Virus record (IMG/VR): IMGVR_UViG_3300043256_000189
Span: 1 to 44,040 of that record
DNA length: 44,040 nt
Reading direction: 5' to 3' (one strand)
From: a virus
This document shows, in pieces, positions 1-25,392 of this stretch (its first letter is position 1; the number at the start of each line of letters is the position of its first letter). A program made the translations under genes and the position numbers. The notes under the pieces are model-generated. The model did no database searches. It worked only from the letters and a program-made list of their open reading frames with translations, and was not told the origin of the DNA.

Positions 1-279
1 TTCGATGTTCCGTTGCTTTCGCACAAAGAGGGACTTGTGTGGACTCTCTGTGAAGAATCCCTCAAGATGGTCAAGGCATTCTAAGCTAACTCCCGCTGCT
101 AGCTCGTAGAGTTCCCCTTTTACTTCTCCCTCCCCCTGCACCAATCCCGGAAAGGCTCCCAAGTTGTAAAGTTGTCCCTCTACCGCTCCTTCGCCTATGA
201 AGCGGGAGTCTTGGAGGACCTCATGGAAGTGCCCACCCTTCTTCAGCGTTCCGTACACAAAGACTTTGGTTTTGGTCAT
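1..279 (-). CDS. gamma-glutamylcyclotransferase-like protein (AIG2/GGCT fold), cut by window edge
   Basis: The reading frame starts at ATG 279 and runs off position 1 with 93 codons visible. Residues 6-15 read VFVYGTLKKG, the YGTL nucleotide-binding-like loop that defines the GGCT/AIG2 family, and LDHLEG around residues 69-74 carries the family's catalytic-type glutamate (E73). The family cyclises gamma-glutamyl amines; in phages the substrate is unknown. The start overlaps the stop of the upstream gene (ATGA), so translation is coupled. If the window is circular, the frame continues through 44040-43999 for 13 more codons, with a proline-rich tail, to a TGA, giving 106 residues. That is a little short for the family (usually about 110-150). 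Confidence 0.8.
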   Translation of the reverse strand, partial: MTKTKVFVYGTLKKGGHFHEVLQDSRFIGEGAVEGQLYNLGAFPGLVQGEGEVKGELYELAAGVSLECLDHLEGFFTESPHKSLFVRKQRNIE

Positions 280-629
280 CCCTTCCCCTCAGTGGCACAG
301 GCCTTCTCTAGCTCGTTGACGCGCCTACAGGCTAGGCACAGACATTTGGAAAGCTCGTGATAAGGATAGCCGTCATTGTGCCACCACTTTGCTTCATCCA
401 GCCGATTCTTCCGCAGCAACTCTTCCAGGTCAGCGGCGGCGGGTTGGAGTTTCTGGACGATGCGACCACAATCTCTAACCGCCCGATTATATGTAGCATC
501 CCAATTATCATCGTGTAATTCTGATTCGTCCTCACGTTTCATTCCTTGGATGGCCTTGATACACGCCGCCAACACTTCCGCCCGCACACGCTTGTCGTGC
601 TTTCTTTGCTCTCTTCCGGCTAGTGTCAT
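276..629 (-). CDS. hypothetical 117-aa protein of the leftward operon
   Basis: Start chosen at ATG 629, just after GGGAGGAGGA and overlapping the upstream stop (ATGA). An earlier start 15 codons upstream lies inside the neighbouring gene. The protein is charged and mostly helical, with a C-terminal CLCLAC cysteine cluster that might bind metal. The family is not recognised. Its stop overlaps the start of the cyclotransferase-like gene. Confidence 0.65.
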   Translation of the reverse strand: MTLAGREQRKHDKRVRAEVLAACIKAIQGMKREDESELHDDNWDATYNRAVRDCGRIVQKLQPAAADLEELLRKNRLDEAKWWHNDGYPYHELSKCLCLACRRVNELEKACATEGKG

Positions 630-1240
630 TCCTCCTCCCAAGCCTCCGGCTCCATAAACTGCACCCTGGGACAAATCTTCGTGTGGAACGTCTGGTAGTA
701 TTTGTAGAGGAGGCGCGCAAAACCCACTGTTGGAACGGTAACTGGCTTTGCAAGAATCTTAGTTGCTCTCCTAACCACTCGTGCGTCTCTATAGACGCCC
801 TGCTTACCCCCATACATATCTACTAGGTGCATGATGGGTATTAGTAGTAGTACAAGGATACCAGCTACGGAAAGAATTAGTAGAAGAAGGACGTACATGG
901 TTCCGAACCCCCAAGCCACATCCGACCACCACGCCCAACCGTCCTGGTATTGCCAAGTGGGGGGAATCAAGAGTGGTGCTCCAATCAGCAGGCCCAACCC
1001 GACCCAACGCGGTCTGAAATGCCAATCCGCTTTTCCCCAAAACGTGACGTACAACGCCCAAAAGGTGAATCTGAGGGGCAGCCCCAGAACTATGAAGAGT
1101 GGGAGCCAGATTAGTAGCGTCCTCATGTACGGACACAGGTAAGTCCCCTGCAACGCCCGACGAGCGCGCATACTGCCGCTCTCCTTCAGATACCAAAGGT
1201 ACAGTCTTGCGTGCCACGATTTCGGGTCAATGTTAATCAT
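626..1240 (-). CDS. multi-pass membrane protein with CPY motif
   Basis: 204 residues. The N-terminus is amphipathic with SWHARLYLWYL near residues 8-18. CPYMR at 36-40 leads into a hydrophobic segment (about 39-66), followed by a second (about 79-95) and a third (about 112-140). The basic C-terminus carries a second Cys-Pro (C190-P191). Small phage membrane proteins with paired Cys-Pro motifs occur in several siphophages, but their role is not known to me. The start overlaps the end of the upstream gene by 8 bases and the stop overlaps the next start, consistent with coupled translation. Confidence 0.75.
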   Translation of the reverse strand: MINIDPKSWHARLYLWYLKESGSMRARRALQGTYLCPYMRTLLIWLPLFIVLGLPLRFTFWALYVTFWGKADWHFRPRWVGLGLLIGAPLLIPPTWQYQDGWAWWSDVAWGFGTMYVLLLLILSVAGILVLLLIPIMHLVDMYGGKQGVYRDARVVRRATKILAKPVTVPTVGFARLLYKYYQTFHTKICPRVQFMEPEAWEEE

Positions 1241-1496
1241 GATTTCTCCCTTGCTCGACTATCTCCTCCGTCAAGTACAAGAACTCCTTTTGAACTCCCA
1301 GCACCTTCGCTCTAGTTTGTACAAGTGTTGGGGTAAAGAACGCATTAGCCGCATCTAAACCATCTGTTTCAACCATTCTGGAGAAGTCTTTTAAGATGGC
1401 TCTTCCCATCCATCGTGCATAGTTAGCTTTGTCTTTCCTCTCCCTCTCCGCCACCGCTAGGGCGTGCTCCGCGACGCTTTGCTTGTGGTTTATCAT
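1233..1496 (-). CDS. hypothetical 87-aa protein
   Basis: Start chosen at ATG 1496, which overlaps the stop of the membrane-protein gene upstream (ATGA). A longer frame from 1532 would run through that gene. The protein is charged and helical (NHKQSVAEHALAVAERER near the start), with no recognised domain. It is probably translationally coupled, since there is no strong ribosome binding site of its own. Confidence 0.65.
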   Translation of the reverse strand: MINHKQSVAEHALAVAERERKDKANYARWMGRAILKDFSRMVETDGLDAANAFFTPTLVQTRAKVLGVQKEFLYLTEEIVEQGRNHD

Positions 1497-1852
1497 CCCA
1501 GGAGTCGGAGAATCTCTCGAATCGCCCACCACTCTGGGTTGATTAGGAGCGTTGGAAGTCGAAAAAGGTTTGTTAGGGTGGCTATATAGCCGACTATGGA
1601 TAATCCCATCCCCGTCATCCAGCGGGCAAACTCATGGTCGTCGCCCGTCTCCCAGCACGTCATGTTCTTGATGAACAAACGCCCTCCAATTGTTAGTGCT
1701 GCTGTTCCTATCAGCAGCCAGATTCCCACCTCAACTGCCTCCACCTTCGCCTGCAACAGCAACACTTCCCAAAGATGCTCAAGCGTCGTTCCCAGCTTCT
1801 CAGCTAGCGCCTCCAGCATCTCCATCGCTTTCTTCTGCACTTCTTCGTTCAT
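1493..1852 (-). CDS. two-pass membrane protein, holin-like candidate
   Basis: 119 residues. The N-terminal part is a helix (EMLEALAEKLGTTLEHLWEV, about 11-30), followed by a membrane segment at about 42-61 and a second at about 78-97, linked by a short polar loop with one cysteine. The LAEKLG...LW..L arrangement before two membrane spans recurs in small membrane proteins of many phages. A holin role is possible but unproven, because a better holin candidate sits beside the M15 peptidase in the rightward arm. Confidence 0.7.
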   Translation of the reverse strand: MNEEVQKKAMEMLEALAEKLGTTLEHLWEVLLLQAKVEAVEVGIWLLIGTAALTIGGRLFIKNMTCWETGDDHEFARWMTGMGLSIVGYIATLTNLFRLPTLLINPEWWAIREILRLLG

Positions 1853-1854
1853 AG

Positions 1855-1911
1855 TTATCCTCCTAAAGTGTGAAGCATCTCAAGCCAATCCCAGGTTTGT
1901 TGCTCGTTCAT
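1855..1911 (-). CDS. 18-aa micro-ORF, possible leader peptide
   Basis: A frame of 18 codons (start ATG 1911, protein MNEQQTWDWLEMLHTLGG) lies between the macro-domain gene and the two-pass membrane gene. A GAGGGAG ribosome-binding-like stretch overlaps the end of the macro-domain gene upstream. The frame ends in the GGAGGATAA that serves as ribosome binding site for the next gene, so even if the peptide has no function its translation could control the downstream start. It could also be chance. Confidence 0.4.
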   Translation of the reverse strand: MNEQQTWDWLEMLHTLGG

Positions 1912-1929
1912 GTTAGTACCCCGGCTCCC

Positions 1930-2367
1930 TCACCACGTAATCACCCACACGTTGTCCGGCAACCCATCAAGTAAGGGCTTTACCTCTTCCCAAGTCCGAT
2001 GTCCATTCCCGCACCCTGGACGGGGAAGAATGTAGGTTGTATCCTTCTTGTGTGCCTTCGCAAACGCCTCTAGGAAATGCGCTGACTCCCTAATGAGTGC
2101 TAAATCCGCCTTCCGATGCCACTCGTGCTTGACAGGAAAGGCCATGAGCCTCCCGTCGTCGAGCGGCCAGCAGAACCGTCTCGTCCCCCTAGCCATGAGT
2201 TGCCCAAGCTGCTTGTCAATCCCTGGGATGCGCTTCTTAGCTTCGAGGGCGCAGCCTCTCCCCATCACAGCACAGCCATTTCGCTTGACGGTGCCGTTCG
2301 TAGTAAGCATCACGACAAAGCCGTCCTTGCCGTAGTAGTCCCAGAGGTTGCCGTTGATTTCTTTCAC
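1930..2367 (-). CDS. macro-domain protein (ADP-ribose phosphatase/hydrolase-like)
   Basis: 145 residues, GTG start at 2367 overlapping the upstream stop (GTGA). The frame shows macro-domain signatures: an N-terminal GN-x-W stretch, NGTVKRNGCAVMGRGCA at residues 24-40 corresponding to the ligand-binding N-G and G-x-G-x-A loops, and LPRPGCGNGHRTWEEV at about 114-129 corresponding to the G-C-G-N-G phosphate loop. Relatives bind ADP-ribose or ADP-ribose 1''-phosphate. In a phage this may reverse ADP-ribosylation or blunt NAD-linked defence, which is inference. The domain makes up the whole protein, as in stand-alone phage macro proteins. Confidence 0.82.
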   Translation of the reverse strand: MKEINGNLWDYYGKDGFVVMLTTNGTVKRNGCAVMGRGCALEAKKRIPGIDKQLGQLMARGTRRFCWPLDDGRLMAFPVKHEWHRKADLALIRESAHFLEAFAKAHKKDTTYILPRPGCGNGHRTWEEVKPLLDGLPDNVWVITW

Positions 2368-2507
2368 TTTTTGCCCCGCCTCTTACGTTTAGGCATGGGG
2401 GTAAAGCGAGCGAACTGCATCTTAGAAGTGTCTAGGCTCCCATCCTTCCGTCGGGGGACTAGCTTACATCGAAGGCCGTTCACTAGAATTGTTTTCTGTT
2501 TCTCCAC
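2364..2507 (-). CDS. small basic protein, 47 aa
   Basis: Start taken at GTG 2507, a few bases after GGAGGG and just downstream of the preceding gene's stop. A longer frame back to 2642 lies entirely over that gene. The C-terminus is strongly basic (KRKRRGKK), suggesting nucleic-acid contact. No family recognised. Its stop overlaps the macro-domain gene start. Confidence 0.55.
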   Translation of the reverse strand: MEKQKTILVNGLRCKLVPRRKDGSLDTSKMQFARFTPMPKRKRRGKK

Positions 2508-2509
2508 CT

Positions 2510-2740
2510 CTATCTCCCTCCCAAGTGCTTTACATGGTTGCCAGTAAACACACAACCTACACAGAGCATCTCGCCGCACCCACAGTGATAGGCAGGCGTG
2601 CTCCGATTCTTCTTCGGCCACTTGTACCCGCATAGAGAGCATCCAGACATTTCCCTGACCTTGCGGGCGCGTGCAATAAAACCCCTACGGTAGAGCTTCA
2701 GCTCTCTGGCCTCCCTACTCCCGCAAACAAGAACGCGCAT
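2510..2740 (-). CDS. zinc-ribbon-like protein with a Rossmann-like N-terminal start
   Basis: 76 residues from ATG 2740, preceded by GGAG with 6-base spacing. Residues 1-9 (MRVLVCGSR) match the opening strand and loop of SLOG/DUF2493 Rossmann proteins, common in phages, but the fold is not continued. From residue 31 a cysteine-rich region (C34, C37, C53, C55, C60, C63) looks like a zinc ribbon. A second possible start is Met31, which would give the zinc ribbon alone. It may be a truncated SLOG gene joined to a zinc finger. Confidence 0.6.
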   Translation of the reverse strand: MRVLVCGSREARELKLYRRGFIARARKVREMSGCSLCGYKWPKKNRSTPAYHCGCGEMLCVGCVFTGNHVKHLGGR

Positions 2741-2743
2741 AGT

Positions 2744-2947
2744 TTACTCCAAGATGATGTACTTACCGTCTTGATCGACCGTTATCTTATCGTCGTAGAG
2801 AGGTCGAATTGGAATCCCGAAGCACTTTCGGGCTATCGCCCGCACAAGATCGCCGAGCCGCGTACCCGCTTCGCGGTAGCGCTTCTGCTGATCCCGCAAG
2901 TCCCGAATCGTGTCTTGCTCTTCGATTGTTAGTTGTGCAACCCTCAT
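2744..2947 (-). CDS. hypothetical 67-aa protein
   Basis: ATG 2947 overlaps the upstream stop (ATGA) and is preceded by GGGGAGG. The first 40 residues are charged and helical (possible coiled coil), followed by a short beta-rich tail ending in KYIILE. No family recognised. The gene sits in an unbroken run of coupled leftward genes. Confidence 0.65.
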   Translation of the reverse strand: MRVAQLTIEEQDTIRDLRDQQKRYREAGTRLGDLVRAIARKCFGIPIRPLYDDKITVDQDGKYIILE

Positions 2948-3330
2948 ATCGTGTCCTCCCCAAACAACGCTCGGATGGACTTCACCGCGCCCTCTACATG
3001 CGACTCGAAGTGTGAGAAGCCCTCTTCGTTCCTAAGCTTTAGTAAATCCACTTTCGCACCACGGACTACAAAGCCTGTTCCATCGTTAGGGCGGAAACCC
3101 AGCGCCCAACGCACGCGGGACACTGTTCTCTGCTTCAGCTCGCAAATTTGGTCTAAGCTCTCTTGAGTCCTTTCGCTGCCATCAGGCCCACGTAGCGTCG
3201 TCACGATGGCGCGGAAGCAGGGATACCTTTGAGTCAGAGATACAAGCTGCCTCAAGCCCGCTTTTATCTCCGCTACTTCCTCTGGTGTAAGTTCGCGTGA
3301 TGTGATAGGGCAAATTACCTGTTTTTCCAT
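2944..3330 (-). CDS. hypothetical 128-aa protein
   Basis: Start set at ATG 3330 after GGAGG at 5-base spacing, rather than 6 codons upstream. The predicted product is mixed helical and basic, with MEKQVICPITSRELTPEEV at the N-terminus and no recognised domain. The start overlaps the stop of the upstream 39-aa membrane peptide (TGATG), pointing to coupled translation. Confidence 0.65.
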   Translation of the reverse strand: MEKQVICPITSRELTPEEVAEIKAGLRQLVSLTQRYPCFRAIVTTLRGPDGSERTQESLDQICELKQRTVSRVRWALGFRPNDGTGFVVRGAKVDLLKLRNEEGFSHFESHVEGAVKSIRALFGEDTI

Positions 3331-3449
3331 CAAAGCCTCCGTGTCCAACTAAAGAAGTTCATTATCCACTCAGCAATCGAGAACGCTACGATGAACAGCG
3401 CGCCTCCTCCAACTGCTATCAGCATGACCAGTAGAATGTCTCCCAGCAT
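3330..3449 (-). CDS. 39-aa single-pass membrane peptide
   Basis: ATG 3449 begins two bases after the stop of the preceding membrane peptide. Residues 4-24 form one hydrophobic span (ILLVMLIAVGGGALFIVAF), followed by a short tail ending TRRL. The stop overlaps the next start. It is one of a pair of adjacent one-span peptides. Function unknown. Confidence 0.55.
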   Translation of the reverse strand: MLGDILLVMLIAVGGGALFIVAFSIAEWIMNFFSWTRRL

Positions 3450-3451
3450 CG

Positions 3452-3568
3452 TTAGTCCCGAAAGAGCCTCATAAACGCCGAAAGCCCAAGCCCCATGAGG
3501 ATTCCCATAGCCATCCCCAAGACGAAAGACGCTTGCAACATCCCACTAACTGCTTGTTCGATAGTCAT
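3452..3568 (-). CDS. 38-aa single-pass membrane peptide
   Basis: ATG 3568 overlaps the stop of the upstream gene (ATGA). Residues 10-33 are hydrophobic (MLQASFVLGMAMGILMGLG), ending in a basic RLFRD. It lies next to a second one-span peptide, so the two may act as a pair. No family recognised. Confidence 0.55.
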   Translation of the reverse strand: MTIEQAVSGMLQASFVLGMAMGILMGLGLSAFMRLFRD

Positions 3569-3768
3569 GGTTTCTTCCTCCGTTGCGTCCAATGTGTCCC
3601 GGCTTTGTACTTAACTCTTTGCTTGGGTGGTCGGAGAGGCACGGTTCCACTTCCGTAAAGCGCACCGAGCCTTTGACACCCTTCCAACCCTAGTAGGCCC
3701 ATCACGTAGTCTCTCCACCGCTGCGTGTTGCTGCACTCGATTGCGGAGCCGCCGTGCTTAACTGACAT
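3565..3768 (-). CDS. hypothetical 67-aa basic protein
   Basis: ATG 3768 overlaps the upstream stop as TAATG. The C-terminal half is basic and proline-containing (RPPKQRVKYKAGTHWTQRRK). No domain recognised. The gene contains one copy of the dispersed GCCGGGACA word (3595-3603, reverse orientation). Confidence 0.6.
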   Translation of the reverse strand: MSVKHGGSAIECSNTQRWRDYVMGLLGLEGCQRLGALYGSGTVPLRPPKQRVKYKAGTHWTQRRKKP

Positions 3769-4007
3769 TAGATGTTTTGTGGGCGGTCGTCAACCTTGCT
3801 TGGGTCTATGACTGTCCCATCTCGCAATCTCAGGGCCTTTACCCGGATGCGAGGCTCAATCCACTCCCTCCACTTGATAACCCCTCCTTGCTCTACAAGC
3901 TCCTTTATTCCTGCGTCGTAGTCAATTAGGAGCACCTCTACTCCCTCTGGCACGACGCACTCCTGCATCAGCCCACTCTTGATTTCGATGATGACTCGTT
4001 TGGTCAT
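3768..4007 (-). CDS. hypothetical 79-aa protein
   Basis: Start set at ATG 4007 because it overlaps the stop of the upstream membrane peptide (ATGA); a longer frame to 4061 overlaps that gene extensively. The product reads MTKRVIIEIKSGLMQECVV with alternating hydrophobic residues, suggesting a small alpha/beta fold. The ending DPSKVDDRPQNI follows a beta-like RVKALRLRDGTVI. No family recognised. Confidence 0.6.
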   Translation of the reverse strand: MTKRVIIEIKSGLMQECVVPEGVEVLLIDYDAGIKELVEQGGVIKWREWIEPRIRVKALRLRDGTVIDPSKVDDRPQNI

Positions 4008-4156
4008 AAGCGCGTTAGGAACGAAACTATGATTACTGCACAGAAAGCCACGATGCCCCAAGCGAAGCTACCCATTGCAAAGCCAAAGGCGATACTACCA
4101 ACTACGACTAGCAGGAGAAATGCTCCTGTGATATTCCTTTCCTCAGTTAGCGCCAC
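4004..4156 (-). CDS. 50-aa two-pass membrane peptide
   Basis: GTG 4156 lies 8 bases after GGAGG and inside the last codons of the zinc-ribbon gene. Residues 10-29 and 31-47 are hydrophobic spans separated by a short GS-containing turn, and the C-terminus is TRL. The stop overlaps the next start. Function unknown. Confidence 0.5.
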   Translation of the reverse strand: MALTEERNITGAFLLLVVVGSIAFGFAMGSFAWGIVAFCAVIIVSFLTRL

Positions 4157-4272
4157 TGTCTCCGCCTCCCACAACTCCCGCAGTAGTACCGATTCTTCCT
4201 CTGCTTTGTGCGCCGCTTAATCCAACCCGAACCACATGACGAACAACGTCCTTTGTACTTCCTGTACGACAT
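4147..4272 (-). CDS. 41-aa zinc-ribbon protein
   Basis: ATG 4272 is preceded by GGAGGCAAGGT. The protein has two CxxC knuckles (C10/C13 and C31/C34) separated by a basic stretch and ends in RRRQWR, a minimal treble-clef or ribbon that could bind nucleic acid. The first 56 bases overlap, in another frame, the end of the upstream membrane-protein gene. The ribosome binding site and the canonical cysteine pairs support it being real. Confidence 0.65.
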   Translation of the reverse strand: MSYRKYKGRCSSCGSGWIKRRTKQRKNRYYCGSCGRRRQWR

Positions 4273-4390
4273 ACCTTGCCTCCGTTGCGAGCCAGACGGC
4301 TCCGTAGATTATTAGCGTCCACAAGCCTATTGCCGGGACAGCTATGTTCCGTAAGCCAATCCAGAAGTTTAGACAGTCTGGGCAGAGCAT
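4217..4390 (-). CDS. 57-aa membrane protein with N-terminal CxxC
   Basis: ATG 4390 follows AGGAG at good spacing. MLCPDC at the N-terminus (C3, C6) is followed by a hydrophobic span at about 17-36 and an amphipathic tail. The last 56 bases also encode the start of the zinc-ribbon gene in a different frame. No family recognised. It contains one copy of the dispersed word (4332-4340). Confidence 0.55.
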   Translation of the reverse strand: MLCPDCLNFWIGLRNIAVPAIGLWTLIIYGAVWLATEARYVVQEVQRTLFVMWFGLD

Positions 4391-4398
4391 GGGTTCTC

Positions 4399-4644
4399 CT
4401 AGTTGTAGCCCACTGCTAGGTACTGAAGGTCGTCGTGGAGCTTTGAGAATTTCTTCATCTTCTCCTCATACCGAGCGCCTACTCTCTGCGCTCGATACTG
4501 AGCGCGTTGCGCTTTGCGCTGCTCTCTGCCTATTTCTCCGTTGTGGTTGGCCATGATGCGGTTAATCGCCTTAGCCTGCCGCCTTAGCCGCTCCAACGTC
4601 GTCTCCCGCTTTGGTTGTGGGGCCGGCTTGAATCTACAAGTCAT
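4399..4644 (-). CDS. basic, coiled-coil-like 81-aa protein
   Basis: ATG 4644 sits directly after the repeated initiation sequence AGAGAGGTGAGACA. The product is very basic and helical (RETTLERLRRQAKAINRIM; REQRKAQRAQYRAQRV), consistent with a nucleic-acid-binding or coiled-coil protein. No known domain. Confidence 0.65.
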   Translation of the reverse strand: MTCRFKPAPQPKRETTLERLRRQAKAINRIMANHNGEIGREQRKAQRAQYRAQRVGARYEEKMKKFSKLHDDLQYLAVGYN

Positions 4645-4648
4645 TGTC

Positions 4649-4840
4649 TCACCTCTCTTGTCCTTCTCCTTCGTAGTTCCTTTGCTCCTCTCTTATGAAC
4701 GCAGCTAGACGCTCAACCTCCTGCCAGCTCAGCCGGATACCAAGCTGCTCTCCCTCAAGCGTCCCTATCTTTAGCGTAGCATCGCTCAGGTTGTGAGTAG
4801 CAAAGTGCTTGTCTGAAAGGTTTGTGCTGTTCTTGCTCAC
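4649..4840 (-). CDS. hypothetical 63-aa protein, first gene after the structured gap
   Basis: GTG 4840 is preceded by GAGAGGTGAGACG, the same initiation sequence used at 4644 and 5924. The N-terminal half is polar; the C-terminal half (SWQEVERLAAFIREEQRNYE) is a charged helix. It is the first gene downstream of the 347-base non-coding gap, so any attenuation or RNA control in the gap would act on it first. Confidence 0.6.
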   Translation of the reverse strand: MSKNSTNLSDKHFATHNLSDATLKIGTLEGEQLGIRLSWQEVERLAAFIREEQRNYEGEGQER

Positions 4841-4883
4841 CGTCTCACCTCTCTAAGTTAATTGGCGACCCGCACCGGATTGA

Positions 4884-5123
4884 CCTAGTATTGTGCCGAT
4901 GCTAGGCTACTTTTTACGGGTGTTACCCCTAAGTAGCCGTTCCCTAACTCGCTGCCACCGCTGCTAGGTCAGTAGGGTGGCTATAGTCGTTAGTACACTA
5001 AGCCGCCAAACAATGGAGAGCACAGGGGCGACTTACAGCCGCATTTACGAACCGGAACTAGCATAGGTTCTACCGTATGCCCTCTCCCCTAGCTACTCGC
5101 GGCTCGCGCCGCTCAAGCGCTAG
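4884..5123 (-). ncRNA. candidate structured RNA in a 347-base gene-free gap
   Basis: The gap 4841-5187 has no convincing gene. Read on the minus strand it shows consecutive hairpins: 5123-5119/5093-5089 enclosing 5112-5108/5103-5099 with a GCGA (GNRA) tetraloop; 5080-5061, eight pairs with one bulge; 5035-5027/5007-4999, nine pairs with one U-G; 4981-4976/4959-4954, six pairs with three inner pairs; and 4938-4931/4912-4905, eight perfect pairs enclosing GGGT/ACCC. A weaker 4906-4902/4888-4884 stem competes with the last one. The class is not recognised. It could be a small RNA, an attenuator or leader of the next gene, or a DNA-level site. This rests on manual folding only. Confidence 0.5.
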
Positions 5124-5187
5124 GAGGCAAGGCACTTTGTGCTTTGCTTGGCGGTGGACAAAACCGCGTTGTTGTCTATTGTGGTGG

Positions 5188-5523
5188 TCAGGTTATGCTG
5201 TCGCAGCTATCCTCTCGGTGGCATGGCCTCTCTCCTTTCTCTGGAATCATCGCTAATGTGAGTTGCTCGCACTCTGCCCGCGCTCGCTCTGCTGTGACAC
5301 CTGCCCTGAGGGCGTAGGCTACAACGTGTGCCATGCCCACACCGCTAACGGGGGCAATCTGGTTTGCGATGTGGAATGCCGATGCTGCTGCGTCAGCAAC
5401 CCGCTTGAACTCTGGTGAGCTTTGGTAGAGCGCCTCAGCAATCTCCTTGTCGCTTGGCCCTATGTCCATCCGCTGCCCGAAGAGCGTAGCCTCAATCGTC
5501 TCCATCTTAGGAAACTTGTCCAT
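5188..5523 (-). CDS. hypothetical 111-aa protein
   Basis: ATG 5523 follows GGGGGAGGTGAGTG; a GTG one codon upstream is an alternative. The protein is mostly helical and alanine-rich in the middle (SPEFKRVADAAASAFHIAN), with a cysteine-containing acidic tail. No family recognised. It is the last gene before the structured gap. Confidence 0.65.
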   Translation of the reverse strand: MDKFPKMETIEATLFGQRMDIGPSDKEIAEALYQSSPEFKRVADAAASAFHIANQIAPVSGVGMAHVVAYALRAGVTAERARAECEQLTLAMIPEKGERPCHREDSCDSIT

Positions 5524-5526
5524 CAC

Positions 5527-5694
5527 TCACCTCCCCCGGCCATAGCCTTTGAGGTCTATGGCGAGCTTGCCCGCTTCTATCTGCTTAACTGCTCGTTCTA
5601 GAGTGCGCAAGAGCGCGTTAGAGAGCAGATAGGCAGACGGGTCATTAAGCAACCTACAGATGCGGTTCCTTAAGCGCTTCGTGTTAGTTATCAC
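5527..5694 (-). CDS. hypothetical 55-aa basic protein
   Basis: GTG 5694 overlaps the upstream stop (GTGA) and is preceded by a G-rich GGGGGAGA. The protein is helical and basic, with leucine and basic residues alternating (RICRLLNDPSAYLLSNALLR) and a GRGR end. Possibly DNA- or RNA-binding, but no domain is recognised. Confidence 0.55.
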   Translation of the reverse strand: MITNTKRLRNRICRLLNDPSAYLLSNALLRTLERAVKQIEAGKLAIDLKGYGRGR

Positions 5695-5924
5695 TCTCCC
5701 CCTCCCCCAATGACCAGGACTGGCTGTTGCTTGCGCCCGTTCTCGAACCCGTCGAGCCAGTTGGCAAGCTCCCCTGTCCCAAGCACGGGCGATAGCGCCG
5801 CGTTCTGCCTTTTGTTGTGAATCTGCTGCTTCCCGCTCCCCATTGAGACAAGGGAAACATCTGCTCCCCCTGCCTTCAGGTTGCGAACTCTCGCCGCCAC
5901 TCTCTTCAGTGATGTTCTCTGCAT
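5691..5924 (-). CDS. hypothetical 77-aa basic protein
   Basis: Start set at ATG 5924, preceded by GAGGTGAGACA, an initiation sequence shared with 4644 and 4840. A longer frame to 6065 would overlap the next gene. The N-terminus is basic (MQRTSLKRVAARVRNLKAGG) and the C-terminus hydrophobic and glycine-rich. No family recognised. Confidence 0.6.
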   Translation of the reverse strand: MQRTSLKRVAARVRNLKAGGADVSLVSMGSGKQQIHNKRQNAALSPVLGTGELANWLDGFENGRKQQPVLVIGGGGE

Positions 5925-5928
5925 TGTC

Positions 5929-6114
5929 TCACCTCTTCGCTTTCTTGCCCTTCTTGCTCCACGCCTGAATATAATTGCAACAGTGGCACCGCTCGATGCA
6001 AGACTTGGGCGTGTGTGTTGTCTCAAGCATCTCCCTGCCACACTTGGGGCACTCCCCGAAGTCAATCTTGCCGATGCGAAGCGTCTGCCCGCCGATGACT
6101 ACGGTTGCGCTCAT
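5929..6114 (-). CDS. 61-aa cysteine-rich zinc-finger protein
   Basis: ATG 6114 overlaps the upstream stop (ATGA). After a short beta-like N-terminus come CPKC (C22, C25) and CIERCHCC (C39, C43, C45, C46), a plausible four-cysteine zinc site with extra cysteines, and a lysine-rich tail. Likely a small nucleic-acid or protein-binding zinc ribbon. Its stop lies in the ribosome binding site of the next gene. Confidence 0.65.
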   Translation of the reverse strand: MSATVVIGGQTLRIGKIDFGECPKCGREMLETTHTPKSCIERCHCCNYIQAWSKKGKKAKR

Positions 6115-6338
6115 GACCACTTGCTCGCCCTTGCGTCCTCTATCCACTCTAGCCTGAATACCTCTCGCCACGCCTGCTCGCAGAGGGGGGCCAGACAGTG
6201 TACAATCCGCCACGCTTCAACCCCTTCGGTCAGAAAGGCCCCAGCTGCGATGTTTGTTGCCCCGCAGAATGGACAACACGCACCGTGTGCGTCAACATAC
6301 GCCTTCTTCTGGTGGTGAGTTAAATACCTAACTCTCAT
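6111..6338 (-). CDS. 75-aa zinc-finger protein
   Basis: Start set at ATG 6338 (overlaps the upstream stop; GGAAGGCGGGGG before it). The sequence contains CCPFC (C21, C22, C25) and a second pair C48/C53 in HCLAPLC, a CxxC...CxxxxC arrangement of a small zinc ribbon. A WREVFRLEWIEDA helix follows. Similar HHxKKxYV...CPxCG micro-proteins are common in phage early operons. Confidence 0.65.
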   Translation of the reverse strand: MRVRYLTHHQKKAYVDAHGACCPFCGATNIAAGAFLTEGVEAWRIVHCLAPLCEQAWREVFRLEWIEDARASKWS

Positions 6339-6532
6339 ACCCCCGCCTTCCTCTGACAAGCACACCCCAAGACGTACTTGCTGTTGTCCACAGTCTTCCA
6401 CGGGTGGCGGGCGCTCTTCCTCACGCGCTCTGTGTTGTGTACGATGTAGTACACCCTCTGCACTCCGTGTCCCTTGTTGCTCAGGCACATGAGCGAGAGC
6501 GCCTTACCTGGATACGACTGGAGTCTTTGCAT
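6335..6532 (-). CDS. hypothetical 65-aa protein
   Basis: ATG 6532 follows GGAGGTGGACG at ideal spacing, inside the end of the upstream gene (29-base overlap in another frame). The product is basic and contains a C-terminal YVLGCACQRK. No family recognised. Confidence 0.6.
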   Translation of the reverse strand: MQRLQSYPGKALSLMCLSNKGHGVQRVYYIVHNTERVRKSARHPWKTVDNSKYVLGCACQRKAGV

Positions 6533-6692
6533 CGTCCACCTCCAACGTGACGCCCATCTGGTTCGCGGCGTCCTTTGCCATGTTCAGATACTCTTGACGC
6601 GGTACTGCCTTGAACAAGTCAGCTACCTCTCGGATGCCGACAGGCTTGTCCGGCGTGCTGAAATACTGCTTGATAACCATTGCTGCTCTCAT
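6504..6692 (-). CDS. hypothetical 62-aa protein
   Basis: ATG 6692 follows GGGGTGGACG and overlaps the upstream stop (ATGA). The sequence MRAAMVIKQYFSTPDKPVGI...VADLFKAVPRQEYLNMAKD is helical and somewhat like a small regulatory winged-helix or bromodomain-sized domain, but this is not secure. The GTGGACGATG initiation sequence recurs at 6532 and 7183. Confidence 0.6.
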   Translation of the reverse strand: MRAAMVIKQYFSTPDKPVGIREVADLFKAVPRQEYLNMAKDAANQMGVTLEVDDAKTPVVSR

Positions 6693-6793
6693 CGTCCACC
6701 CCAAATGACAACTAACATACACGCACAAAAAATCACGGTCAGACAGATGACGAGTACAGCCGCGAACGCCCCTTCATCTAGCTCAATCCTCAT
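6689..6793 (-). CDS. 34-aa single-pass membrane peptide
   Basis: ATG 6793 follows AAGGAC just after the stop of the upstream gene. Residues 8-30 form one hydrophobic span (FAAVLVICLTVIFCACMLVV) with two cysteines, preceded by an acidic N-terminus and ending WGGR. The stop overlaps the next start. Function unknown. Confidence 0.5.
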   Translation of the reverse strand: MRIELDEGAFAAVLVICLTVIFCACMLVVIWGGR

Positions 6794-6797
6794 GTCC

Positions 6798-7034
6798 TTA
6801 GCCCTCACACCAGCACGGCTGGTGATGCTTCCTATGTCCACAATCTTCGCCCACTTGCTCTTCCTTGCTCTGCTGTGCTCTCATGCCCCGCCTTGCTGCT
6901 GCTCGCTTGCGCCTCAACTCCAGGGCGTCTTCCATGTCCAGCGACGCCAGCCCCGTCAGGGTGCCATCAGCTATCGCTTGCGAGTTAGCTTGCGACTCGC
7001 GCTCGATGCTGTCTATCGTGGTCCGGTAGCTCAT
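6798..7034 (-). CDS. hypothetical 78-aa protein with Cys/His tail
   Basis: Start set at ATG 7034, preceded by GGGGAG and overlapping the stop of the upstream gene. The first 50 residues are charged and helical (RRKRAAARRGMRAQQSKEEQ). The C-terminus carries a cysteine/histidine cluster, EDCGHRKHHQPCWCEG, that could coordinate metal. No family recognised. Confidence 0.6.
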   Translation of the reverse strand: MSYRTTIDSIERESQANSQAIADGTLTGLASLDMEDALELRRKRAAARRGMRAQQSKEEQVGEDCGHRKHHQPCWCEG

Positions 7035-7183
7035 CGCCCACTCCCCGTGGGCTTCCACGTCACCATCCCACCAGCGTTCAGCTCACACTCAATAGCCTCA
7101 CGGCTGATAGGCTCCCACCGGCCCTCGTAGTTGAGCACTTCGTAGCCGCTGTCCGGCCTCTCTGTTTTCCACCGTACTGTCAT
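7031..7183 (-). CDS. hypothetical 50-aa protein
   Basis: ATG 7183 follows GAGAGGTGGACG. The short protein is tryptophan-containing and beta-like (MTVRWKTERPDSGYEVLNYE...GRWEPI), and its stop overlaps the next start. No family recognised. The strong initiation site and coupled ending support it. Confidence 0.55.
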   Translation of the reverse strand: MTVRWKTERPDSGYEVLNYEGRWEPISREAIECELNAGGMVTWKPTGSGR

Positions 7184-7204
7184 CGTCCACCTCTCAACTA
7201 AGTC

Positions 7205-7303
7205 TCAGAGGCGACGGACTATCGCCTGACTTGCAAGCTCTTTGGCAGCACGTTCCATCTGGCCTGATCTTACGTTTGGGCCGCCAGTGAGCGCATCGTC
7301 CAT
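7205..7303 (-). CDS. 32-aa micro-protein
   Basis: ATG 7303 follows GGTGAGGCG. The product is MDDALTGGPNVRSGQMERAA followed by a helical KELASQAIVRRL. A nearby ATG 6 bases downstream and upstream alternatives make the start uncertain. No family recognised; it may be a chance frame within an otherwise dense operon. Confidence 0.4.
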   Translation of the reverse strand: MDDALTGGPNVRSGQMERAAKELASQAIVRRL

Positions 7304-7351
7304 CGCCTCACCATCGCCCCCCGTAAGAGGCGAGTATCAAGCGACGAGCGA

Positions 7352-7370
7352 ACGGGGGAGTAACCCCCGT
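7352..7370. repeat. 7-bp inverted repeat (hairpin) between leftward genes
   Basis: ACGGGGG at 7352-7358 pairs with CCCCCGT at 7364-7370 around a 5-base loop. It lies just after the first gene of the leftward operon. There is no T-run, so it is more likely an RNA-processing, stability or attenuation element than a simple terminator. Confidence 0.5.
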
Positions 7371-7384
7371 CCACCGCCAGTTGC

Positions 7385-7564
7385 CTACTCCGGTCGGATG
7401 TAGGCGTTCAGACTCACGATCACGGGCTTGTCGTTCACCGTGACCGCAGTTGCCACAGCTCCGTGAGTCGTGGCTACCAGGAGAGTCTTTCCCGACTTAC
7501 TCTCCGATGGTGTCTGCAAGGGAATTGTGATAACCAGGTTCTTGTTCTCAATCTTGACCTTCAT
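7385..7564 (-). CDS. 59-aa protein, first gene of the leftward operon
   Basis: Start set at ATG 7564 after AGGAGAGTGCC; a longer frame to 7645 has no such site. The product (MKVKIENKNLVITIPLQTPS... GKTLLVATTHGAVATAVTVN) alternates hydrophobic and polar residues, suggesting a small beta-barrel or sheet. Short beta-rich proteins of this kind often open phage early operons. No specific family is assigned. Confidence 0.65.
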   Translation of the reverse strand: MKVKIENKNLVITIPLQTPSESKSGKTLLVATTHGAVATAVTVNDKPVIVSLNAYIRPE

Positions 7565-7679
7565 GGCACTCTCCTGTACTCGAAATCCGACTGCGAAAAA
7601 CTTTCGCCGAATTTGCGTCTCGACCTCACAACTCGCTGAAACCAAAGCACTTGCGAGCTGCCACGCCTCACGCGTTTCA

Positions 7680-7707
7680 TTTATATATGCATCGCGTCTG
7701 CGTGCAA
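7680..7707 (-). promoter_or_regulatory. sigma70-like promoter of the leftward operon
   Basis: On the minus strand TTGCAC (7707-7702), a 16-base spacer and TATAAA (7685-7680) give a good match to TTGACA/TATAAT. It points toward the first leftward gene at 7564 with a leader of roughly 110 bases. No better candidate is visible for this operon. Confidence 0.55.
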
Positions 7708-7711
7708 CTCT

Positions 7712-7762
7712 TTTGTTTTCAACGACTTACGCAATCGGCCATCCTAACTCATTGAAAACAAA
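7712..7762. repeat. TTGAAAACAAA operator-like repeats
   Basis: TTGAAAACAAA occurs inverted at 7712-7722 (minus) and 7752-7762 (plus), and again in direct orientation as TTGAAAACAAAG at 7923-7934. The first copy lies five bases upstream of the leftward -35 box. The spacing and location suggest sites for a regulator or an initiator protein. Confidence 0.5.
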
Positions 7763-8022
7763 GGACGCCGCGTGACGTGCCAATTCACGCCTAAATCAAT
7801 GTAACGCGCACGTAAAGCCTTTAGGATCAATACTTTAGGCTTCAGCCACCCCCCACCCCCCTATCACCTATAAAACGGGGCCACTCAGCCAGCTTTGGGG
7901 AATTTGGAATTCTAGTAACTTGTTGAAAACAAAGCTCTAGGCGTGTACGTGAGAGGGGAGGGAGAGATTTGGGGGGAAATATATGAGAAATATGGGGGTT
8001 AGGGCAACTTTTGCGACGATTT

Positions 8023-8058
8023 TGTCGTAATTTTCGATTTTCCAGGGTCTAACATAGT
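8023..8058 (+). promoter_or_regulatory. phage-type promoter element, copy 1 (structural operon)
   Basis: TGTCGTAAT (8023-8031), 12 variable bases, then AGGGTCTAACATAGT (8044-8058), followed by a G/A-rich leader and GGAGGG before the ATG at 8096. The same two blocks at the same spacing occur before the integrase (42973-43008) and were not found elsewhere. Position and conservation point to a promoter that is not a standard sigma70 type; TAACAT could serve as a -10. Confidence 0.65.
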
Positions 8059-8095
8059 AGAGGGGAAGAGTGTCTAAAGCAGAGGAGGGAGAAAA

Positions 8096-8356
8096 ATGAC
8101 CAAAGAACGTAGAATAGAAATCGAACTTGAAGGCTTTAAGCTTATCTCAAAGGCTCAGAACATACTTTTAGAGGCCCAAATTACGCAATTAAAGCCTTGC
8201 AACCTTGTTGACGGGGAACTACACCTTTCCCAATCGGTTATGAACACAACAATGGTTATAGCAGATCAAGTTATGCAGCAGGCAAAGTTGCTCACTTCAC
8301 TTTTAGTAGAACAAAAGAACGGCCAAACACCCAATGCCCCGGAAAGGAAGACCTAA
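8096..8356 (+). CDS. hypothetical 86-aa protein, first gene of the rightward operon
   Basis: ATG 8096 follows GAGGAGGGAGAAAA. The protein is helical and charged, without a recognised domain. It lies between the phage-type promoter and the small terminase gene and overlaps that gene by 23 bases, so it may be a terminase accessory or an early rightward regulator. This is inference from position. Confidence 0.65.
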   Translation: MTKERRIEIELEGFKLISKAQNILLEAQITQLKPCNLVDGELHLSQSVMNTTMVIADQVMQQAKLLTSLLVEQKNGQTPNAPERKT

Positions 8357-8801
8357 GCCCGAAGCGCCCTGGTTCCAAGAAGCCGCAAGGCTGATGGTAC
8401 AGAAGGGCCATAATCTGAGGCAGGCGGCCTTAGAGCTGGAGATTCCACTCACTTCGGCGGACGCAGAGAAGATTCAGCGGCGGAAGAGCTTCCAAAGTGT
8501 GATTTGGACGGAGCGGCAAAGATTCTTTCAAGAGATTGGGCGGGACCCAATGCGGACGAAAGAGGCCGTTTTGGGTCGGCAGGAGTTCCTCATTCAGAAA
8601 TTGATCGAATCTGGGGACTACGACAAGGCGGCGCAAGCCAATTTGAAGCTTGCACAGATGGAAGGCTGGACCGGAGCGGACAGTCAGGTGACGATTTTCG
8701 CCGGATTGAGCGCCAAAGACATCGAGGAGGCGAAGAAATTTCTAAATGAGCAAGCAAAAGGACCAGTTGCTCGAACATCTGGCACGACTGCCGTCCAATA
8801 A
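8334..8801 (+). CDS. terS: terminase small subunit (probable)
   Basis: 155 residues immediately before and overlapping the large terminase. The N-terminal part contains a helix-turn-helix-like stretch (ARLMVQKGHNLRQAALELEI, about 18-37), typical of the DNA-recognition domain of small terminases. The middle is helical (oligomerisation), and GWTGADSQVTIFAGLS resembles the C-terminal tail of such proteins. There is no strong ribosome binding site, so translation is probably coupled to the preceding gene. It would recognise the packaging site and hand DNA to the large subunit. Confidence 0.75.
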   Translation: MPRKGRPKPEAPWFQEAARLMVQKGHNLRQAALELEIPLTSADAEKIQRRKSFQSVIWTERQRFFQEIGRDPMRTKEAVLGRQEFLIQKLIESGDYDKAAQANLKLAQMEGWTGADSQVTIFAGLSAKDIEEAKKFLNEQAKGPVARTSGTTAVQ

Positions 8802-10260
8802 GGAGGCATTGGTATTACTGGAGGCGCTCGACCAGAAACGGCGCAAAGAGCATTACGTCAAGTATTGGGAGCCGTATGAGAAGCAGAAGCCACTTTTCAA
8901 GAGATTTACCAAGGATAAGAAGGTTTTTGGGGTACTAGGGGGCAATCGGAGTGGAAAAACCGAGTTTGGAGCATTTGTTGCAACTGCGTGGGCGCTTGGA
9001 AAAGAATATTTCCGGAATGAGCCTGCTTGGGAGTATGTCAAGGACTTACCGATCCCCGAGCCCCCCAATAACATTTGGGTCGTCGGCTTGGATTTTAGCG
9101 TCCTACGTGACGTTATTTGGCGAGAAAAATTACTTTTTGGTAGAAATCACCCTAGATTCCTCCCCAGCGAGCCTGGATGGATCATCCGGCAGGTAGATAG
9201 GGACTTCCAACTCTTCCTAAAGAACGGAAGCGTCATCACTGGGAAGTCGGCGGACTCGGGTAGAGAGAAGTTTCAGGGGGCTTCGGTTGACCTTGTTTGG
9301 ATTGACGAGGAGCCGGAGGTAGAGATTTTCGATGAATGCTTCCAACGCACGGCAGATTGTGCAGGAAAGCTGCTCCTGACGCTCACTCCGTTGACGGATA
9401 AGGGCTCAGGCGTCAAGACGCCGTGGGTTTTCGATCTCTACGAGGAAATGAAGGCCGGGAAGGACGACGTTGAGTTTGTGCAGTTGTCGGTTTTAGATAA
9501 TCCCTATGTCCCGGCGGAGGAGAAAGATAGGTTACTTATCAAGTGGTCGGGGCACTTTGAGGAGAAAGCGAGGCTTTATGGAGAGTTTATTCAGCGTTCG
9601 GGACTTGTCTACAATATGTGGGACCCAGCTAAGCACCTTGTCAAGCCATTCCGGATTCCCCGAGACTGGACCAGAATCGTATCTCTTGACCCTGCCTCTA
9701 CAGGAGTTACCGCAGCGCTTTGGGGGGCAGTTGACGATAAGGGAAATATCTACCTCTACCGGGAATATTACGAACGGGACAAAGTAATCAGTGAGCACGC
9801 AAAGAGCATCAAGATCTTTACTGCTGGAGAGCCGGTAGATATTTGGTTGATAGACCCGAAGTGGGGTTCGCAGAGGAATGCAGAGACCCACAAGACGAAT
9901 ATGCAACTCTATCGAGAGGCGGGAATCCCAGTGAGGTTGGCGGTGGTTGGAGAGGATTTCGGGCTTAACGCAAGTCGAGAGTATATGCATTCGACGATTA
10001 CACCTGGGAGTCGGCATCCTTGGGTGAGGGTATTTCAGGATTTGGAGCACTTCAAGAGCGAAATATCTCATTACACGTGGGACTTTTTTGCGAAGGGTGA
10101 ATTGAAGGGCTTGGGAAAGGATAAGCCGAAGAAGCGGAATGATCACCTTATGAACAGTTTCCAGTACCTTTCGGCTATGCGGCCAAAGGGGAGACGTACA
10201 AGGGAGGGAATAAGCGACGATGAAAGAAGAAAGTTTGCGAGACTCAACAGCTACACCTAA
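8746..10260 (+). CDS. terL: terminase large subunit (ATPase/nuclease)
   Basis: 504 residues. Walker A GVLGGNRSGKT is at 62-72, Walker B VDLVWIDEE at 181-189, and the C-terminal RNase-H-like nuclease has acidic residues D315 (VSLDPAST), D370 (WLIDPKWG) and D466 (RNDHLMNSF). It powers DNA translocation into the prohead and cuts the concatemer. ATG 8746 overlaps the small subunit gene by 56 bases without a clear ribosome site. A TAAGGAGG right after the small-subunit stop (8799) suggests a possible internal start near residue 22-25. The gene contains one GCCGGGACA word (9507-9515). Confidence 0.95.
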   Translation: MSKQKDQLLEHLARLPSNKEALVLLEALDQKRRKEHYVKYWEPYEKQKPLFKRFTKDKKVFGVLGGNRSGKTEFGAFVATAWALGKEYFRNEPAWEYVKDLPIPEPPNNIWVVGLDFSVLRDVIWREKLLFGRNHPRFLPSEPGWIIRQVDRDFQLFLKNGSVITGKSADSGREKFQGASVDLVWIDEEPEVEIFDECFQRTADCAGKLLLTLTPLTDKGSGVKTPWVFDLYEEMKAGKDDVEFVQLSVLDNPYVPAEEKDRLLIKWSGHFEEKARLYGEFIQRSGLVYNMWDPAKHLVKPFRIPRDWTRIVSLDPASTGVTAALWGAVDDKGNIYLYREYYERDKVISEHAKSIKIFTAGEPVDIWLIDPKWGSQRNAETHKTNMQLYREAGIPVRLAVVGEDFGLNASREYMHSTITPGSRHPWVRVFQDLEHFKSEISHYTWDFFAKGELKGLGKDKPKKRNDHLMNSFQYLSAMRPKGRRTREGISDDERRKFARLNSYT

Positions 10261-20425: not shown

Positions 20426-20640
20426 ACATGAAAACTTGGTTTAGCAAGCAGCGTTGGCACTTCATCTACGGGTTAGTTATCCTGTGCCTCCTCGCCGGGA
20501 CAACTTGGCAACGTTGGACGATAGAGACGCAGAAAAAGGATCTTAAGGTACTAAGTCAGTATATTGTTAAGGAGCACATGGCTGCGGTTGAGCATATGTA
20601 TCGGGTTCACGGAGTAGCGCCTCAACAAAGGCGATTCTAA
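20419..20640 (+). CDS. 73-aa single-pass membrane protein
   Basis: ATG 20419 (or 20428) overlaps the preceding gene. One membrane span is at about 14-30 (FIYGLVILCLLAGTTW), followed by a charged helical tail (ETQKKDLKVLSQYIVKEHMA) facing one side. This spanin-like or anchor layout gives no specific function. One GCCGGGACA word lies at 20494-20502. Confidence 0.55.
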   Translation: MVNMKTWFSKQRWHFIYGLVILCLLAGTTWQRWTIETQKKDLKVLSQYIVKEHMAAVEHMYRVHGVAPQQRRF

Positions 20641-24229: not shown

Positions 24230-25195
24230 GTGGCAGATGTAATTACAGTCACTACCGGGACTGTTGGGAACGCAGGCAACGTCGTAGCATCGCTTATCAC
24301 TTACTTGAGTGCTAAGCTACTCGAAGTTGCAGAGTTGAACACCATCTTGGATCAGTTCGGGGACAAGCACCCGCTTCCAAGTAACAACTCGAAGACTATT
24401 CGCTTCGTCCGCGAGGAAAAGCTTACAGTCTCTTCGACCCCCTCACAGTTAACCGAAGGTGTTGCACCGGATTCGGTGGGCATTACGCTGAATCAATTCG
24501 AAGCCACGGCAGAGCAGTATGGATCTTTGGTCCGTATCTCTGACCTAGCCGAGTTGACCGCTAAACATAACATCGTTGAGCGGACCATTTACGTCCTTGG
24601 CCTAGAAGCCGCAGAAACTTATGACCAGCTCATTTTCACCGTGCTGGACGCTGCTTCTAACAACTATCGGCCCAACAGCAAGGCTGCAGACACTAACTTG
24701 GTCGGAAGCGACCACGTTGGCTATGTGGACTTGATTGAGCTAGATGCGTTGCTACAAGACCAAGGTGCGCGGCCTATGGAAGGCGGAGAGTACGTTTTTG
24801 CGACTCCTCCGCAAGTCTACGCCGCGCTTCTGAAGGACCCAGATTTCAAGGCAGCCGCGCAGTTCGGCGATCCTGCCCGGATCTGGCGTGGTGAGATGAA
24901 GATGTTGGGAGGTTTCCGCATCGTTCGCACCAACGCTCCAGGGTTTGCTGCAACCGCACAAACGCCTGCAGGTCAAGCAGACAAGGTCTATTCATCGTTT
25001 GCCATCGCTCGTTTCGCCTATCAGATTACCGACCTCCAAAACCTTCGGGTTTACGTGGTCGCCCCTGGTGGACAAAGCGATCCGTTGCAACAGAACCGGA
25101 AGATCGGTTGGAAGTTCGCTTTCAAGTCGATCATCACGAATCAAACTTGGATTCGCCGGGTTCGGTCTGCCGGTCTGGATTCCGTTACCAACTAG
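24230..25195 (+). CDS. major capsid protein, N4-gp56 family
   Basis: 321 residues from GTG 24230 after AAGGAGTAACGCTA. The N-terminal YLSAKLLEVAELNTILDQFG and KHPLPSNNSKTIRFVREEKL, followed by TEGVAPDS, and the later YDQLIFTVLDAAS, HVGYVDLIELDALLQ and GGEYVFATPPQVYAALLKDP, match the N4-gp56 major capsid family (HK97 fold). It builds the icosahedral shell. A hairpin follows (25220-25239), likely limiting readthrough after this highly expressed gene. Confidence 0.9.
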   Translation: MADVITVTTGTVGNAGNVVASLITYLSAKLLEVAELNTILDQFGDKHPLPSNNSKTIRFVREEKLTVSSTPSQLTEGVAPDSVGITLNQFEATAEQYGSLVRISDLAELTAKHNIVERTIYVLGLEAAETYDQLIFTVLDAASNNYRPNSKAADTNLVGSDHVGYVDLIELDALLQDQGARPMEGGEYVFATPPQVYAALLKDPDFKAAAQFGDPARIWRGEMKMLGGFRIVRTNAPGFAATAQTPAGQADKVYSSFAIARFAYQITDLQNLRVYVVAPGGQSDPLQQNRKIGWKFAFKSIITNQTWIRRVRSAGLDSVTN

Positions 25196-25275: not shown

Positions 25276-25392
25276 ATGAAAGTAAAGGAGAAGCGAATCT
25301 GCTTTCTGTGCGACGGCGAACTGGAGGCACGGACACCGTGTACTTGGGTTTGCAAAAGGTGCGGACAGAAGGTTGAGAGTTGTAGTGATTGA
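25276..25392 (+). CDS. 38-aa zinc-ribbon micro-protein
   Basis: ATG 25276 follows TTAGGAGAAAGA. Cysteines C9/C12 (CFLC), C22/C26/C29 (CTWVCKRC) and C36 form two candidate metal sites in a very short chain, with a basic N-terminus. It overlaps the glycosyltransferase start. Likely a zinc-binding accessory protein, function unknown. Confidence 0.6.
   Translation: MKVKEKRICFLCDGELEARTPCTWVCKRCGQKVESCSD

Follow-up and report, generated by a model that had tools for sequence, protein, structure and literature searches.

The DNA analysed here, referred to below as the window, comprises all 44,040 bases of a virus record (IMGVR_UViG_3300043256_000189) and has a leftward and a rightward block of genes. 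The leftward block (about 200-7600) consists of small genes, mostly without an assigned function, and the rightward block includes the genes for the terminase and the major head protein. A tyrosine integrase is encoded close to the right end, so that the phage is probably temperate, with an attachment site more likely to lie there than at 4.9 kb. The key genes and signals are the following.

1930-2367, leftward block: PHROG-335-like gene ("phosphatase")
4649-4840, minus strand: downstream ORF, 63 aa, GTG start, without a family match
4815-4821, minus strand: segment in codons 7-9 of this ORF that is able to pair with the Shine-Dalgarno (SD) region
4845-4851, minus strand: SD core GAGGTGA of the same ORF, whose GTG start is at 4840
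4841-5187, minus strand: gap without a gene, 5-9 stops per frame, full-gap folding z about -3
5188-5526, minus strand: upstream ORF, 111-112 aa, without a family match
8746-10257, rightward block: terminase large subunit
20640-22652, rightward block: portal/head-tail adaptor
24230-25192, rightward block: major head protein
29753-31699, rightward block: match to an internal virion protein
43031-43903, right end of the record: tyrosine integrase

The PHROG-335-like gene is the leftward-block gene most common to the relatives of this phage (loci L038, L033, L040, L050 and L003). Elsewhere in the record, a 2370-aa ORF (35636-42748) matches, in its C-terminal third, just one PHROG, of unknown function, and the ORF that follows the major head gene (25373-26014) shows weak glycosyltransferase matches (E 3e-5).

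A preliminary description of this DNA drew attention to a 347-base gap in the leftward block, and the gap is real: the minus-strand ORF 5188-5526 ends at 5188, and the next gene starts with GTG at 4840 behind its SD. As also claimed there, this is the sole large gap inside the leftward block, which is otherwise tightly packed; apart from it, 1-171 at the contig end, 3349-3451 and the divergent region (about 7776-8333) are left uncovered. The gap holds no ORF, with between 5 and 9 stops in each of the six frames, and a PHROG search with its read-through frames yielded nothing better than E 0.11. The coding call itself uses stop counts only, because codon-usage scoring failed to separate the known leftward genes from noise. 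On the minus strand of the gap, a consensus scan detected no sigma-70-type promoter, and no intrinsic terminator (a GC-rich hairpin followed by a U run) was found; the two terminator-like matches in the gap are both on the plus strand (4884-4906 and 5151-5167), and their total number does not exceed the level in shuffled sequences.

The whole gap folds better than expected by chance. On the minus strand, its minimum energy is -132.6 kcal/mol (z -2.97, with none of 100 shuffles as good), and further shuffle sets gave z -3.0 (1/200) and z -3.6 (0/80). Among 126 minus-strand tiles of 347 nt, including two that overlap the gap, the mean z is -0.29 (sd 1.18) and two reach z -3, so that the folding excess of the whole gap, though real, is not extreme. 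The plus strand folds about equally well (-132.5 kcal/mol; z -3.2, 0/80 shuffles), and energy alone therefore picks no strand. In ensemble diversity and in its share of confident pairs the gap is unremarkable, with 20 and 28 of 150 shuffles, respectively, as extreme. The segment originally proposed as a structured RNA, 4884-5123 on the minus strand, folds no better than its shuffles (z -0.37, 72/200; in a repeat, z -0.32, 42/120) because its edges cut helices; the proposal of unusual folding energy thus holds for the full gap and fails for the segment as delimited. The best-defined part of the gap is a domain at 4862-5009 which, folded as the 156-nt region 4858-5013, reaches z -3.0 (2/200 shuffles as good).

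In transcript order, the predicted fold of the gap comprises two weaker hairpins, a hairpin capped by a GCGA tetraloop, a region of context-dependent pairing (5084-5016) and the domain (5009-4862), with the following elements (P, pairing probability).

5127-5167, minus strand: weaker hairpins at 5167-5151 and at 5147-5127, whose mean P in the isolated gap is 0.72-0.77
5086-5126, minus strand: strong hairpin with the GCGA tetraloop
5016-5084, minus strand: context-dependent region, including a nine-pair stem of the preliminary description
4862-5009, minus strand: predicted four-way junction domain, 148 nt
5009-5000/4871-4862, minus strand: closing helix P1, 10 pairs (three G-U)
4998-4939, minus strand: arm A, with a 16-nt loop (4975-4960)
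4964-4971, minus strand: first strand of a possible kissing helix, UGACCUAG, in the arm A loop, part of inverted repeat I3
4905-4938, minus strand: arm B, hairpin GGCTACT...AGTAGCC with GGGT/ACCC inside, P 0.90-0.97 in five contexts
4902-4872, minus strand: arm C, with a 17-nt loop (4895-4879)
4881-4888, minus strand: partner strand of the possible kissing helix, CUAGGUCA, within the arm C loop

The hairpins initially read from the sequence fared unequally when they were folded in longer contexts. The GCGA-capped hairpin, with 8+4+5 pairs and P 0.83-0.99, is strong and is kept in every context that contains it (P 0.95-1.0); it ranks third in stability among the 44-nt loci of the window on either strand, behind 34541-34584 (-29.2, plus strand) and 7335-7378 (-28.0, minus strand). 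Arm B is likewise robust, with P of at least 0.90 in every context tried. The stem formed by CTCCTAGC and GCTAGGGG has the eight pairs ascribed to it, one of which is G-U, so that it is not perfect, and the nine-pair stem 5084-5076/5024-5016 does not persist, its P falling from 0.75 in the isolated gap to 0-0.07 when it is folded within any of three longer contexts. The four-way junction had been missed, because the edge chosen for the segment cut its closing helix. It is predicted to be compact, with three unpaired bases in all (1, 0, 2 and 0 between successive helices). The upper stem of arm A is stable (P 0.95-1.0 in all contexts containing it), and across five contexts P ranges from 0.18 to 0.95 for P1 and from 0.2 to 1.0 for arm C; the lowest values, 0.18 and 0.2, come from one long context with the kissing contact left out and count against the fold.

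Arms A and C, the first and third, carry in their loops a perfect 8-base complement, UGACCUAG and CUAGGUCA. The duplex between them would yield -10.9 kcal/mol, against a cost of 4.2-5.2 kcal/mol for keeping both strands free in the four-way fold, and since the gain exceeds the cost, a kissing contact between arms A and C is plausible by this energy estimate unless the penalty for it exceeds about 6 kcal/mol. A rival fold with the same eight pairs arranged as a nested helix reaches -52.2 kcal/mol, against -58.5 kcal/mol.

To gauge how unusual this arrangement is, we used a criterion (a four-way junction plus a kissing match) that was set after the motif had been seen, which applies to all the junction and loop statistics that follow; for both the real sequence and the controls, short helices at the loop tips (fewer than 4 pairs) were opened ahead of the loop comparison. 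For the 156-nt region, a compact four-way junction occurs in 36 of 3000 dinucleotide shuffles and in 18 of 1688 window tiles (about 1%), a loop-loop match of at least 8 in one of the shuffles and none of the tiles, and the two combined, with the match of at least 8 joining the first and third arms, in neither (0/3000 and 0/1688). These 1688 tiles include some that overlap the gap. Because the palindrome CTAG could itself create loop-loop matches, the shuffles were repeated with CTAG kept whole: 2 of 4000 then had a loop-loop match of at least 8, 39 a compact four-way junction and none a first-third arm match of even 6 or more, and the energy was as good in 7. When whole-gap shuffles were scored, which allows for the motif anywhere in the gap, any loop-loop match of at least 8 appeared in 6 of 2000 and one inside a compact four-way junction in a single one; of 742 tiles taken elsewhere in the window, clear of the gap, none showed either. 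The arrangement is unusual, and the plus strand of the gap contains neither a loop-loop match of at least 8 nor a four-way junction carrying one.

The energy and geometry of this single sequence suggest that the gap probably encodes some functional RNA, acting in cis or in trans. Its position is next to a translation start: P1 ends at 4862 and the SD region begins at 4853, so that the domain stops 8 bases short of it. Like cis-acting structured leaders in general, the gap thus has a stable predicted structure (z -3.0 for the domain) beside the SD. In the prediction, the SD region (4853-4847) pairs with a stretch of the gene itself, 4821-4815 (P about 0.82). The accessibility of the SD, 0.21, is just the third lowest among 18 leftward starts, and occlusion alone is therefore not special. 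An alternative in which the SD is held by the CACC beside the upstream stop (5186-5183/4849-4846) was discarded, its P being 0.87 in the isolated gap and 0 in longer contexts. We tentatively favour the reading that the gap specifies a structured, untranslated, cis-acting leader RNA, which would make up about 310-347 nt of the leftward transcript ahead of ORF 4649-4840. Among the roles put forward earlier, that of a leader for the next gene is accordingly the best, given a domain predicted to lie directly before its SD; a packaging RNA has no support, and an origin is weakly disfavoured, the GC content of the gap being 55% and its repeats being short two-copy families only.

Under the leader reading, we infer the following course of events. 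The leftward transcript would carry the structured RNA between ORF 5188-5526 and ORF 4649-4840, and the 3' half of this RNA would form the compact four-way junction, possibly with the 8-pair contact between its first and third arms. The junction would form or melt, perhaps when a protein, a small ligand or a tRNA binds to it, and its state would determine if the SD is accessible or sequestered in the hairpin with codons 7-9. In one of these states, the domain would alter the access of the 30S subunit to the SD, in cis.

The strongest competitor, although somewhat unlikely in our view, is that the gap is a spacer without any RNA function, for instance the remains of a lost gene or of an inserted piece, in which the fold and the loop match arose by chance. 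One argument for it is the outcome of the search for homologues. Terminase searches returned three relatives at 64-69% identity from the single sequence and 80 loci from an alignment, and none in bacterial genome contigs. The gap itself matched nothing better than E 3.2 in blastn against the 80 related loci, and in phages and plasmids the best matches were short stretches at E 1 and 0.09, respectively. Neither the neighbouring ORFs as queries nor DNA patterns revealed a copy of the gap, and a covariance model of the domain, run on the window together with 61 loci and on 25 whole records (the window's own and 24 others), recovers the domain itself and nothing else. With no copy among the relatives, the element is an orphan. 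Moreover, spacers of 200-540 nt occur in this arm of several relatives and share no meaningful sequence with the gap, two of 126 tiles equal its folding excess, and the motif was chosen post hoc. The loop-loop and junction statistics speak otherwise, however, as does the tight packing of the rest of the gene block, and no frame shows a trace of a protein family. One of the relatives' spacers, 376 nt long (L050:7222-7597), occupies a comparable place in the leftward block and has strong hairpins of its own, without shared sequence; the minus strand of its 7300-7520 part folds with z -2.2 (2/100).

The RNA might instead act in trans, as a host-directed small RNA, a protein decoy or a scaffold that is processed from the leftward transcript or started within it. 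Several stable hairpins, a compact domain and little coding constraint would suit such a molecule, and the length lies within the range covered by phage non-coding RNAs. The minus strand of the gap, however, shows neither a consensus sigma-70-type promoter nor a terminator-like site, and the abutment of the domain on the SD is better explained by a role in cis, so that we regard a trans-acting RNA as distinctly unlikely.

A role of the gap at the DNA level, as an origin, a recombination site or a protein-binding site in which the inverted repeats act in DNA, appears improbable. The plus strand folds about as well as the minus strand, the gap folded as single-stranded DNA reaches z -2.0 (4/100), the phage has a tyrosine integrase, and CTAG palindromes are moderately enriched, with 6 in the gap against a shuffle mean of 3.1 (105 of 2000 shuffles reach 6). 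Yet the four-way fold with the loop contact does not form on the plus strand, there are no iterated direct repeats beyond short pairs, the GC content is 55%, and the integrase, at 43 kb, would be near the gap only if the record were a permuted circle. Nor does TGCTAGG qualify as an operator, with 3 copies in the window against 5.7 expected. CTAG, which had been noted as a tetramer usually rare in bacteria that recurs in the stems, occurs 144 times in the window against 181 copies expected from trinucleotides, so that it is not rare here, and the predicted fold has just one CTAG:CTAG pair in a stem. A denser CTAG cluster than that in the gap (7 per 240 nt) starts at 38210; the densest, with 8 copies in about 270 nt (38177-38445), lies inside the 2370-aa ORF.

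Repeats of another kind are found in the divergent region (7636-7934), where TTGAAAACAAAG recurs at 7711 (minus strand), 7752 and 7923 (both plus strand) and, with 2 mismatches, at 7636. Its longer form, TTGAAAACAAAGGACTTA, is present twice with at most 3 mismatches, against 0.04 expected, and AACAAAGNNCTTA is present in 11 of 84 loci, including L010, L018 and L064. These repeats may serve the phage group as operators, promoters or iterons. Two repeats of the relatives, AAAGGACTTATTT and TTTGAGGCTCC, are not enriched in the window.

With respect to known RNA classes, an Rfam scan of the whole window, riboswitch models included, gave nothing at gathering score, ARAGORN found no tRNA genes, and within the gap, up to E 10, Rfam returned no riboswitch and no tRNA, the sole match being GP20-b (RF03003). 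The match is full length (model positions 1-62; 4982-4903, minus strand), with 21.3 bits against a gathering score of 36.2 and E-values of 0.023 (gap against 4227 families), 6.9e-4 (this family alone against the window) and 2.9 (whole window); the other three entries of the whole-window list are human lncRNA fragments. GP20-b is classed as cis-regulatory in Rfam and shares with the gap the letters GGAACGG, GUAAC/GCAAC and UAAAAA...AGC.UA, but its first helix competes in the gap with a much more stable stem, and its two helices, written out by hand, amount to -7.4 kcal/mol against -30.8 kcal/mol for the minimum fold. None of 50 related records (50 of the 61 closest loci) matches the family at E 1 or better, and a scan of Synechococcus phage S-PM2, chosen because the family may occur in cyanophages, gave at best 11.7 bits. 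A literature search on GP20-b found nothing, and the available text of PMC9964418 concerns other RNA families. A relative illustrates how convincing a nonsense Rfam match may appear: beside its terminase region (L003:8704-8776), a nematode snoRNA family scores 29.9 bits (gathering score 50), higher than GP20-b does in the gap. With a score 15 bits below the gathering score, a competing stable fold and no matching relatives, GP20-b identity was rejected, and the reading of the gap as a divergent member of that family is hardly credible. An unclassified structured RNA is plausible from the modelled fold, and the original proposal of a structured minus-strand RNA without a known class stands once it is corrected to the full gap and the four-way junction, not in the limits first given.

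Should the fold be true, the leader would be an orphan that belongs to no Rfam family, arranged like a tRNA and with a loop-loop helix of unusual length, and single phages would carry private structured regulators that are invisible to comparative screens needing many homologues; the present phage group was reached in this analysis only via IMG/VR virus records. Should it not be real, the case would be one for caution, in that a gap picked out by eye, together with a motif defined after the fact, can convince without homologues.

The comparison with known systems starts from tRNA, in which the arms of the cloverleaf abut and the D and T loops are in contact. The predicted domain is likewise a four-way junction with few linkers, in which the first and second arms abut, as do the third arm and the closing helix, and the possible loop contact between its first and third arms would resemble the D-T contact. 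At 148 nt, however, the domain is twice the size of a tRNA and has an 8-pair kissing complement instead of the D-T contacts. A more ambitious version of the leader reading, which we consider unlikely, would make it a new class of phage RNA: an oversized tRNA-shaped domain of 148 nt before an SD, its first and third arms locked by an 8-pair kiss, that could serve as a switch (through the rival nested fold) or as a tRNA mimic recruiting a tRNA-binding or ribosomal factor. Cobalamin riboswitches, as described in the available text of PMC10907184, combine, as predicted here, a junction domain before the SD with a loop-loop helix and an SD-holding hairpin, and junction aptamers with kissing loops ahead of the SD are a known route of control in that account. 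Kissing loops typically have 5-7 pairs according to the same text, compared with the 8 of the possible helix here, and the cobalamin kiss joins the aptamer to the SD hairpin, whereas the predicted kiss in the phage RNA would join two arms of the junction.
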